Source of the DNA: Clostridia bacterium | Lineage (GTDB): Bacteria > Bacillota > Clostridia > UMGS1883 | Direction of reading: 5' to 3' | Length of the DNA stretch: 55,931 nt | Assembly (NCBI GenBank): GCA_017440585.1 | Contig: JAFSGW010000049.1 | Coordinates: 1 to 55,931, forward strand | Part shown: in pieces, positions 4,275-55,931 of the stretch | Layout of the letters: each line of letters starts with the position of its first letter | Numbering within the stretch: the stretch's first letter is position 1 | Program-made: the position numbers and the translations under genes | Notes under the pieces: generated by a model | What the model was told of the DNA's origin: nothing | Databases searched by the model: none | Seen by the model: the letters and a program-made list of their open reading frames with translations, nothing else

Positions 4275-4508
4275 ATGGAACAGAAAATCAAACAGGATTC
4301 CATCCAAATAGGCGCCAATATTCGCCGCATCCGCAAGGAAAGGAATATAAAGCAGGTTGACCTGGTTCGCCTTCTTCAGCTTGAAGGCATTGATATGACC
4401 CGTGAGTGCTTAGTTAAAATTGAGCGTGGCATTCAGCATATCTACGCATCCCAGCTTCGTGCAATCCGCGATGCCCTTTCCACCACATACGATGAACTAT
4501 TCAAATAA
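4275..4508 (+). CDS. Small HTH (XRE/Cro-type) transcriptional regulator
   Basis: The 77-aa protein is a single helix-turn-helix domain: the segment IGANIRRIRKERNIKQVDL forms the first helices and DMTRECLVKIERG resembles the recognition helix region of XRE proteins. No ligand or oligomerisation domain follows. An upstream in-frame extension exists, but ATG at 4275 has a GAGGTG site seven bases before it and starts the domain cleanly. Mirrored boxes lie directly upstream, suggesting control of itself and of the divergent Cys-rich gene. Confidence 0.85.
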   Translation: MEQKIKQDSIQIGANIRRIRKERNIKQVDLVRLLQLEGIDMTRECLVKIERGIQHIYASQLRAIRDALSTTYDELFK

Positions 4509-4637: not shown

Positions 4638-4715
4638 GTTTTGCAAAGCAAAACATATCGCATTGCCAAAGGCAATATATCGCGCCGAAGGCATATCGCA
4701 TCGAAGATATATCAC
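4638..4715 (+). repeat. Microhairpin string with constant ATATCGC linker
   Basis: Four short self-complementary units follow one another: GTTTTGCAAAGCAAAAC, ATTGCCAAAGGCAAT, GCCGAAGGC and ATCGAAGAT. After each comes the linker ATATCGC (the last is ATATCAC). The hairpin sequences are unrelated, but the linker is fixed. The same linker in the opposite orientation joins hairpins at 55830-55911. The string lies in the gap between the HTH gene and nadC; two open reading frames crossing it look artefactual. Confidence 0.8.
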
Positions 4716-4748
4716 AAAAACGGAGAAAAGCCAAACAAAAGCAAATTT

Positions 4749-4846
4749 AAAGACCATTTCGGGACTGTCCCAACAAACATCCGCAGATGTTCTTTGGTTC
4801 GTCGTCTCCCGACGATACCAAAGGGGGACTGTCCCAAATGGTCTTT
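4749..4846. repeat. GGGACTGTCCC long hairpin, copy 1
   Basis: The outer arms AAAGACCATTT and AAATGGTCTTT pair, followed inward by GGGAC and GTCCC and two inner hairpins (around ACATCCGCAGATGT and CGTCGTCTCCCGACG). It sits between convergent genes (HTH on plus, nadC on minus) and resembles 44962-45055 almost throughout. A bidirectional terminator role fits, though the T-run here is short. Confidence 0.75.
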
Positions 4847-4880
4847 CGTTGCCTTAAAATGCTTTTTCTCCGTTTTTATC

Positions 4881-5732
4881 TCAAATGGCGTGTAAATTCT
4901 TTAAGCTTACATCCAGAATAGGTGCAGAATGTGTAAGTGCACCGCTTGACACAAAGTCAACGCCTATATCTGTAATTCTCTTGATGTTTTCGGCAGTTAC
5001 ATTGCCCGAGCACTCAGTTAACGCACGTCCGTCAATAATTTTAACAGCCTCTCTCATATCATCGTCTGTCATGTTGTCAAGCATGATGATATCAGCGCCT
5101 GCTTCAACAGCTTCACGTACCATATCAAGGTTTTCGCACTCAACCTCAATCTTTGTAACAAAGGAAATGTAATCACGTGCCATCTTGACAGCCTTTGCAA
5201 TACCGCCTGCAGCACCTATGTGGTTGTCCTTAAGCATTACACAGTCGGAAAGGTTGTAACGGTGGTTGTTACCGCCACCCTGCTTAACGGCATATTTTTC
5301 AAAAATACGCATGTTGGGGGTTGTCTTACGTGTATCAAGAAGCTTTGTCTTTGTGCCCTCCAAAAGAGAAGCCACCTTATTTGTGTATGTAGCAATACCG
5401 CTCATTCTCTGAAGGTAGTTAAGTGCTGTTCTTTCACCTGAAAGAAGTACTCTTATGTCGCCCGTTACGGTTGCAAGAAGCTGTTTGTTGGAAACATGGT
5501 CGCCATCCTTTACGTAAAGCTCAACCTCTGTGTTTTCATCCAGAAGCTCAAACACTCTCTTGAAAACACCAAGCCCTGCAATAACGCCGTCCTCTTTACA
5601 GATGAGCTGAACCTCACCCTTGCAGTATTCGGGCATAACAGCCTGAGTGGAAATATCCTCACTGGAAATGTCCTCTTTAAGTGCCATCATAATTAAATCG
5701 TCACAAACAAGTTTCATTGTAATATCATTCAC
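4881..5732 (-). CDS. nadC: Nicotinate-nucleotide pyrophosphorylase (quinolinate phosphoribosyltransferase)
   Basis: NadC converts quinolinate and PRPP to nicotinate mononucleotide, CO2 and PPi in de novo NAD synthesis. The 283-aa length is standard. Visible family marks include the LLDTRKTTPNMR segment with KQGGGNNHRYNLSD shortly after, the KDNHI motif, the barrel strand IEVECENL, and IMLDNM. The start is GTG at 5732 with AAAGGAGAG eight bases before it. It overlaps the end of nadB by 8 nt, so the two are translationally coupled. Confidence 0.96.
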   Translation of the reverse strand: MNDITMKLVCDDLIMMALKEDISSEDISTQAVMPEYCKGEVQLICKEDGVIAGLGVFKRVFELLDENTEVELYVKDGDHVSNKQLLATVTGDIRVLLSGERTALNYLQRMSGIATYTNKVASLLEGTKTKLLDTRKTTPNMRIFEKYAVKQGGGNNHRYNLSDCVMLKDNHIGAAGGIAKAVKMARDYISFVTKIEVECENLDMVREAVEAGADIIMLDNMTDDDMREAVKIIDGRALTECSGNVTAENIKRITDIGVDFVSSGALTHSAPILDVSLKNLHAI

Positions 5733-55248: not shown

Positions 55249-55277
55249 GTAGGGGCGACCATTGGTCGCCCGTTTTC
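55249..55277. repeat. GTAGGGGCGACC palindromic block, copy 1
   Basis: GTAGGGGCGACCATTGGTCG and nine further bases, identical to 55752-55780. GGGCGACC pairs with GGTCGCCC. Similar in style to the GTAGGGACCGACG blocks near 53.6 and 54.4 kb. Confidence 0.78.
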
Positions 55278-55290
55278 CTTATCCGCACAA

Positions 55291-55462
55291 TTCAAATGAA
55301 GCATTGCACGTTGCCATATAAAGCTGTTTCTATTAAATCAAAAATAGGATTTTGCCTTAGCAAAATCCTCACCATAACCCGTCCTTGGACGGATTTCATT
55401 GCGAAGCAATTTCACCGCCTTCAAAGAAGGCGATTTCACCAATCCGCAGGATTGATTTCATT
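55291..55462 (+). repeat. Microhairpin string with TTTCA-type linker, copy 1
   Basis: Starts TTCAAATGAAGCATTGCACG. A series of short hairpins follows: AGGATTTTG/CAAAATCCT (55346-55369), CCGTCC/GGACGG (55379-55392), ATTGCGAAGCAAT (55398-55410), CGCCTTCAAAGAAGGCG (55416-55432), AATCCGCAGGATT (55441-55453), mostly joined by ATTTCA or TTTCACC. It is about 95% identical to 55572-55744. No gene is seen in 55208-55931. Confidence 0.78.
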
Positions 55463-55517
55463 GAAAAAGGACATCACCCTTTATCCCCCGTAAAGTGCAA
55501 TTCACGCCACACCCCAC

Positions 55518-55571: not shown

Positions 55572-55744
55572 TTCAAATGAAGTATTGCACGTTGTGCAAT
55601 ATAAAGCTGTTTCTATTAAATCAAAAAAGGATTTTGCCTCAGCAAAATCCTCACCATAACCCGTCCTTGGACGGATTTCATTGCGAAGCAATTTCACCGT
55701 CTTCAAAGAAGGCGATTTCACCAATCCACAGGATTGATTTCATT
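55572..55744 (+). repeat. Microhairpin string with TTTCA-type linker, copy 2
   Basis: Nearly identical to 55291-55462 with a few changes, among them CACCGTCTTC for CACCGCCTTC and CCACAGG for CCGCAGG. The ATTGCACGTTGTGCAAT hairpin near the start is fuller here. Confidence 0.8.
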
Positions 55745-55751
55745 TAACCCT

Positions 55752-55780
55752 GTAGGGGCGACCATTGGTCGCCCGTTTTC
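55752..55780. repeat. GTAGGGGCGACC palindromic block, copy 2
   Basis: Identical over 29 nt to 55249-55277, directly behind the second TTTCA-type string. Confidence 0.8.
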
Positions 55781-55829: not shown

Positions 55830-55911
55830 GCGATATATTTGCTGTGCAAATGCGATATATCCTCGCTATGCTCGGATGCGATATATTTTTATTAAAATAA
55901 AAATGCGATAT
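55830..55911 (-). repeat. Microhairpin string with constant GCGATAT linker
   Basis: Linker GCGATAT at 55830-55836, 55852-55858, 55878-55884 and 55905-55911 separates the hairpins ATTTGCTGTGCAAAT, ATCCTCGCTATGCTCGGAT and ATTTTTATTAAAATAAAAAT. GCGATAT is the complement of the linker ATATCGC at 4638-4715, so this is the same type of string on the other strand. A further hairpin ATTGCACGTTGTGCAAT precedes it. The string may run past the right edge. Confidence 0.82.
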
Positions 55912-55931
55912 GACATAAATCCCTTCACGCC

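Follow-up and report, generated by a model that had tools for sequence, protein, structure and literature searches.

The string of four short hairpins at positions 4638-4715 of the 55,931-nt stretch of Clostridia DNA analyzed here (the window) is, in our judgment, probably a half-copy, itself non-autonomous, of an apparently mobile element of gut bacteria that is dispersed in Clostridia and linked to a gene of the 23S rRNA intervening sequence protein family (IVP; PF05635), a reading that is based on sequence comparison. The four hairpins are set on fixed 7-nt linkers (ATATCGC three times, then ATATCAC), and the observation of the initial annotation, which had drawn attention to them, is real and general.

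Hairpin strings in the window and across genomes

The initial annotation had described four unrelated palindromes separated by exactly the same 7 nt. All four hairpins lie exactly where it had placed them, between 4638 and 4708 (Table 1), and the linkers at 4655, 4677, and 4693 are indeed ATATCGC, but the fourth, at 4709, reads ATATCAC. The palindromes are also less unrelated than had been supposed, given that hairpin classes recur and are tied to particular positions, as with AAATYCC..GGRATTT for the outermost one; moreover, the TCACGTTTTGCAAAGCAAAAC start of the innermost hairpin recurs at locus L022 (contig C57) and, with variants, at L029. The string is one half of a larger element, located behind the minus-strand nadC gene, and may be a dead relic. 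The long inverted repeat that adjoins it corresponds to a terminator-like hairpin (hp0) at the nadC 3' end, the loop of which holds a palindromic insert (4749-4846).

Table 1 Positions of the hairpin strings and adjoining features in the window
Position	Strand	Feature	Details
4275-4508	+	Small helix-turn-helix gene, opposite flank of the string	PF12844, under curated cut-off
4638-4654	+	Innermost hairpin of the half-string, preceded by TTCAC	GTTTTGCAAAGCAAAAC; GTTTTGC AAA GCAAAAC, stem of 7 bp
4655-4661	+	Linker	ATATCGC
4662-4676	+	Hairpin	ATTGCCAAAGGCAAT; ATTGCC AAA GGCAAT, 6 bp
4677-4683	+	Linker	ATATCGC
4684-4692	+	Hairpin	GCCGAAGGC; GCC GAA GGC, 3 bp, C-GNA-G triloop
4693-4699	+	Linker	ATATCGC
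4700-4708	+	Hairpin	ATCGAAGAT; ATC GAA GAT, 3 bp
4709-4715	+	Outermost linker, variant	ATATCAC
4716-4877		Long inverted repeat, beginning right at the outermost linker	Arms 4716-4744 / 4849-4877, 76% complementary
4881-5732	-	nadC (quinolinate phosphoribosyltransferase); the string follows its 3' end	PF01729, E 6e-63
55388-55463	-	Gut-1-type string, sister linker family	Linker ATTTCAC/ATTTCAT; RF01706, 63.1 bits (gathering score 50)
55670-55745	-	Second Gut-1-type string, in a tandem duplicate of the region of the first	RF01706, 56.7 bits
55830-55911	-	Second ATATCGC half-string (B-half)	3 hairpins, 4 linkers
55912-55931	-	Beginning of an element center, truncated by the contig end	GGCGTGAAGGGATTTATGTC on the minus strand

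When the window was searched de novo for 7-mers of any sequence whose copies enclose hairpins (two or more units), only two strings were recovered, i.e., 4638-4715 and, on the minus strand, 55830-55911, and the same search returned no string in 30 dinucleotide-shuffled windows. The second half-string includes a tandem-GA hairpin, ATCCGAGCATAGCGAGGAT, and is identical over 107 nt to a copy in genome G000 (contig C40). Other repeats were noted in the same window. A dispersed palindrome with the cores GGGACTGTCCC / GGGGACAGTCCCC occupies the loop of the nadC terminator-like repeat (4749-4846) and reappears near the contig end (55520-55557); a Gut-1-bearing segment of ~177 nt is duplicated in tandem (55291-55465 and 55572-55747; 95% identical) and is also found at G000:C40; and the palindrome TAGGGGCGACCATTGGTCGCCCG, present twice (55250-55272 and 55753-55775), represents a further dispersed repeat.

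Searching the genome for ATATCGC-N(6-20)-ATATCGC yielded 68 linker-hairpin-linker matches, compared with a single match for the reversed pattern; 66 of the 68 units are hairpins, and shuffled linkers gave about none. The pattern was present in all four genomes of the genus (4/4) and, in high number, in genome G020, which belongs to another genus of the same family. A scan of GTDB representative genomes returned at least 120 stretches with the pattern; among the stretches listed, those from Clostridia metagenome-assembled genomes nearly all had hairpins between the linkers and those from other phyla almost never did, the latter serving as a natural control for hairpin presence. Among IMG/VR viral contigs with a three-linker pattern, 28 of 230 linker units passed the hairpin filter. 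Neither of the refuting outcomes named in the initial annotation was seen, in that other strings conserve the linker and hairpin placement was nonrandom; the strings sit just behind genes, tRNAs, and terminators. A CRISPR array or an iteron was rejected, because palindromes vary here between copies of a constant 7-mer and because matches to the pattern from beyond the Clostridia are almost hairpin-free; the earlier portrayal of the string as the reverse of a CRISPR array is descriptive only.

Complete elements consist of two inverted halves around a center, in the order hp0, A-half, center, and B-half. The A-half reads GCGATAT-hp1-GCGATAT-hp2-GCGATAT-hp3-GCGATAT-hp4, the center ends in GTGA(R)GGGATTTATATC, and the B-half reads ATATCGC-hp-ATATCGC-hp-ATATCGC-hp-ATATCGC. 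Behind a gene or tRNA, the A-end often sits against a hairpin that is commonly a terminator. In addition, the center holds a direct copy of the 3' arm of hp1, which changes along with hp1 (GGGATTT, GGAATTT, GAGATTT, GGATCT, GCGGATCT); at least five shared nucleotides were found in 32 of 94 reads (both orientations), as against 11% when the center of another element was used and 5% for shuffled centers.

Stem covariation and the folding strand

Alignment of 22 distinct A-halves revealed invariant linkers and variable stems. Among 264 stem pair cells, 99.6% were paired, with 65 double changes and not one one-sided change, and the covariation score reached 0.640, compared with 0.221 for shuffled and at most 0.177 for slid structures; because selection of the A-halves relied on linker spacing and on a stem criterion for hp1 alone, the pairing of hp1 is inflated in these values, the other two hairpins being unaffected. 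Consistently, at orthologous sites of G000 and G002 (L029/L260, L014/L299, and L021/L274), the linkers were kept while both arms had changed, and the number of units at one orthologous site differed as well (~6 hairpins at L028, two in G002). Replication slippage, one of three options offered in the initial annotation, is not supported, as slippage would not yield these compensated arm changes, the ordered A-center-B layout, or the strand-specific loops described below.

The strand that folds is the one reading ATATCGC. On this strand, we counted 38 tandem G.A mismatches and none of the complementary T.C type, 82 C-GNA-G loops versus 1 reversed, and 52 C-GNNA-G loops versus 0. Strings with the linkers ATTTCAY, ATTTAGC, ATATCGA, and ATATCAY have the same strand direction, those of the ATATCAY type being devoid of any tandem mismatches. 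Loops of the C-GNA-G and C-GNNA-G types are exceptionally stable when formed in DNA, as in the mini-hairpin d(GCGAAGC). Because such loops are stable in DNA and no G-U changes were seen, DNA is favored over RNA, and the folded form is probably DNA.

The Gut-1 motif (RF01706) was derived from human gut metagenomes and proposed to be a noncoding RNA (Weinberg et al. 2010, PMC2864571). Against RF01706, ATATCGC elements score 22-45 bits in their left half, i.e., under the gathering score of 50, and their alignments display the three hairpins with a repeated linker that characterize Gut-1; in the same genome, strings of the ATTTCAC type, often in inverted pairs, score above this cut-off, and the stretch 4638-4715 itself had no Rfam match at E<=1. 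As both linker types match RF01706 and inverted pairs occur, Gut-1 appears, from these matches, to be a sister string with the linker ATTTCAC and half of the same kind of element. The strings could be structured RNAs (small RNAs or 3' regions of transcripts) with a role in protein binding or in the protection of mRNA ends, their dispersal being incidental. The listing of Gut-1 in Rfam as a small RNA agrees with such a role, as does the location of strings directly behind genes, tRNAs, and terminators, and tandem G.A pairs and GNRA-type loops would fit RNA too. However, the two halves fold best on opposite strands, so one transcript cannot serve both; the lack of any G-U or one-sided change in 264 pair cells would be unusual in an RNA; the loops are mostly of the 3-nt C-NNN-G or the GNNA type, including GTCA, which is not a GNRA loop; and, judged by eye, apparent promoters lie between the string and the IVP gene in several copies. 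We therefore regard structured RNA as an unlikely explanation.

Mutation alone might also produce such patterns, if template switching in quasi-palindromes recopied one arm from the other without any function being involved. Compensated changes without one-sided intermediates would be expected from this process, and whole-arm replacements were seen at orthologous sites (L029/L260). Nevertheless, the linkers are fixed, tandem G.A mismatches are retained rather than corrected, loop and mismatch types are strand-specific, and the element spreads as a unit with IVP, all of which make this account improbable.

Linkage to IVP genes and dispersal

Several B-end flanks were found to be homologous across genomes and linker families, and the gene common to them is that of the PF05635 (23S_rRNA_IVP) protein. 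The copy in the genome of the window matches PF05635 (E 6e-22) and PDB 2rld (E 6e-20, five chains). IVP is a ring-forming four-helix bundle of ~115 aa that belongs to the Avd/S23p family; members of the IVP family form pentamers and resemble Avd (PMC4990558, PMC10053308). We found no paper linking IVP to hairpin arrays. Samples at the family, order, and class levels provided 95 IVP genes; for 24 of these, an identical 7-mer linker, detected de novo and joining two or more hairpin units, was located within 400 nt 5' of the gene, whereas such linkers were found in 0 of 475 shuffles and 0 of 171 more distant windows. The linkers recovered beside individual IVP genes were ATTTAGC, ATATCGA, ATTTCAY, ATATCGC, ATATCAY, ATATAAC, AATTCAT, and others.

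Linker type follows the IVP tree rather than the host family. On a tree of 43 IVPs, the linker requires 11 changes (minimum, 8; shuffled mean, 28.4; 0 of 200 shuffles as low) and the host family 25, a congruence that may reflect joint inheritance without contact, because string and gene adjoin. We infer from the sequences that IVP may read, i.e., bind, the linker. The suggestion in the initial annotation that the linker is a protein-binding platform is the best supported of its three options, albeit indirectly, through the change of linker with the type of the adjoining IVP protein. In G000, an ATATCGC-type IVP is present (L354), so that the linker equals that of the resident IVP type. In contrast, G002 and G020 have many ATATCGC strings, yet the linker was assigned to no IVP gene of either genome; IVP would therefore be dispensable at times, have been lost, or act across types. 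Several incomplete genomes had strings and no IVP, and the string copies of the window itself contain no IVP gene.

IVP genes without hairpin strings were accompanied by inverted arrays of their own short repeats in 15 of 47 cases, compared with 0 of 27 controls (Clostridia), and, under the more tentative reading given below, such a class of elements could be very widespread. At these loci (L333, L336, L362, L365, L370, L387, L392, L419, L425, and L426), short repeats such as TGCAGAA, AGTGGAA, GTGGGTA, or GAATTAG stand in tandem 5' of the gene and as reverse complements 3' of it. Separately, a short open reading frame begins within a few dozen nucleotides of the IVP stop codon at L353, L413, L381, L341, L334, L402, and L400; it varies between copies as if it were cargo, and one version appears nucleotidyltransferase-like by eye.

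Most linked IVP genes have the string immediately on their 5' side, separated by a promoter-like stretch, and the string could therefore be viewed as a regulatory operator of IVP, solo copies having hitch-hiked by recombination. This is very improbable, given that dozens of strings have no IVP gene nearby and that complete strings occur behind tRNA and other genes.

The dispersal of elements is evident from near-identical units in unrelated surroundings. L334 (G020) and L383 (G076, of another family) have 606 nt in common at 92.7% identity, a stretch that begins ~256 nt ahead of the IVP start codon and ends 4 nt past the stop, and two loci of G142 have 636 nt in common at 98%. Likewise, the IVP-less ATATCGC copies L300, L301, and L302 (G020) share 241-266 nt at 95-97% at differing loci (blastn), and the L022 and L027 elements of G000 are absent from the orthologous G002 sites (L244 and L282). 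From these sequence comparisons, in a sample of one genome per species, the dispersed elements are apparently mobile. The idea of a mobile hairpin factory put forward in the initial annotation is partly supported: elements are dispersed over differing loci and host families, unit number varies at orthologous sites (L028 versus G002), and an inverted copy of the host gene end is often found within the end hairpin.

With regard to the latter, in 56 of 112 A-ends beside coding genes the outermost linker lay no more than 3 nt from the end of a stem of 8 bp or longer, compared with 20 of 400 control positions. At L355, L395, L400, L413, L122, and L027, the host-side arm of hp0 is part of the coding sequence, and its reverse complement forms the element-side arm; judging by its C-terminal motif, the host gene of the first five is one that we take to be rlmD (23S rRNA methyltransferase), and these five rlmD-end elements carry different linkers. 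The uninserted genes L097 and L282 have no such palindrome. More broadly, different linker types were noted at the 3' end of rlmD at L395, L400, L403, L413, L355, L107, and L122. The host-specific inverted copies, a small set, suggest fold-back copying at insertion. Part of the hp0 signal may stem from ordinary terminators, because element-free terminators also have extended stems (at L290, a natural terminator with a long stem and no element), and the notion of hp0 as a universal inverted copy is thus only partly supported. Target-site duplication was not apparent, in that the end repeats of full elements were as in mismatched controls, except at L301, L302, and L310, which have long direct repeats. 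A 25-nt direct repeat, ATTGCGACACATAAGGTTTAGATGC, flanks the strings of L300, L301, and L302 on one or both sides.

Under the explanation that we favor, a complete element is made of two inverted arrays of at least three hairpins with a type-specific 7-nt linker, the folding strand reading the linker outwards from the center, and its autonomous form carries the IVP gene beside the string and apparently moves as a unit of ~0.6 kb. The IVP ring is envisaged to bind the single-stranded, folded array, with the linker conferring type specificity and the hairpins acting as interchangeable spacers, for which shape and loop would matter and stem sequence would be free. The complex would then insert at the 3' ends of genes, in many cases at a terminator or the end of a tRNA, where fold-back priming could copy the host end into a new hp0 hairpin. 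Known routes of movement gained no support: neither Y1 transposase (absent from G002 and G020) nor RVT_1 (absent from G000 and G020) fits the distribution of the strings, and a general target-site duplication was not seen. More tentatively, and with less confidence than doubt, such elements might constitute a class of mobile DNA that is free of transposase and reverse transcriptase and relies on an Avd-like IVP ring and host polymerases, with recognition of its own linker and fold-back insertion at gene ends; each insertion would make a new hairpin from host sequence.

Movement of REP/BIME-like elements by a RAYT or an IS200/IS605 Y1 transposase acting on single-stranded hairpins would account for the strand-specific hairpins, the BIME-like inverted composite layout and intergenic dispersal, and, through Y1 chemistry, the absent target duplication, but is scarcely credible, as the Y1 transposase (PF01797) was absent from the string-rich G002 and G020, the hairpin sequences are variable rather than conserved, and the linked gene is IVP, not TnpA.

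Relation to known systems

We know of no function for the Gut-1 RNA motif, described in 2010, or, despite solved structures, for the S23p/IVP proteins; the hairpin strings place both in a context and suggest a role that can be tested. Provided that IVP does read the linker, its clades would constitute a natural lock-and-key series, with eight or more joint changes of protein and DNA word. Furthermore, dispersed hairpins at the DNA level can, as our analysis suggests, give rise to the covariation in repeated elements that usually counts as proof of a structured RNA, and some cataloged RNA motifs may therefore be mobile DNA. Gut-1 shares with the present elements the three-hairpin string, the repeated 7-nt linker (GUGAAAU), and inverted pairs in the same genome; unlike them, it was described as a noncoding RNA from the human gut only and not as half of an inverted, dispersed, IVP-linked element.

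Among short mobile elements, MITEs are similar in comprising short non-autonomous copies with an autonomous relative. However, the autonomous unit of the strings has no transposase gene, and target-site duplication is not general, so we did not assign them to the MITEs of a DDE transposon. REP/BIME elements with their RAYTs likewise form dispersed intergenic hairpins, inverted composites, and strand-specific structures; here, the hairpins vary and the linker is constant, the reverse of REP, and no Y1 transposase is needed. Membership was rejected on the variable hairpin sequences and the absence of PF01797 from G002 and G020.

Diversity-generating retroelements (DGRs) offer a precedent for the favored reading on the protein side, as IVP resembles the DGR protein Avd (PMC10053308), and on the DNA side, as the DGR target needs a DNA hairpin in which structure and loop matter and the stem sequence may vary (PMC3240598). 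Nonetheless, RVT_1 was absent from G000 and G020 at E<=1e-8, and membership among DGRs was rejected. The 23S rRNA intervening sequence (IVS) is a selfish stem-loop element that encodes S23p/IVP (PF05635) and is located at a hairpin (PMC4990558), and the autonomous relatives of the string encode PF05635 too. In contrast to the IVS, which lies in a 23S rRNA helix, the strings are intergenic, at the ends of protein and tRNA genes, and they are linker-hairpin arrays that occur in many, mostly gene-less, copies per genome.
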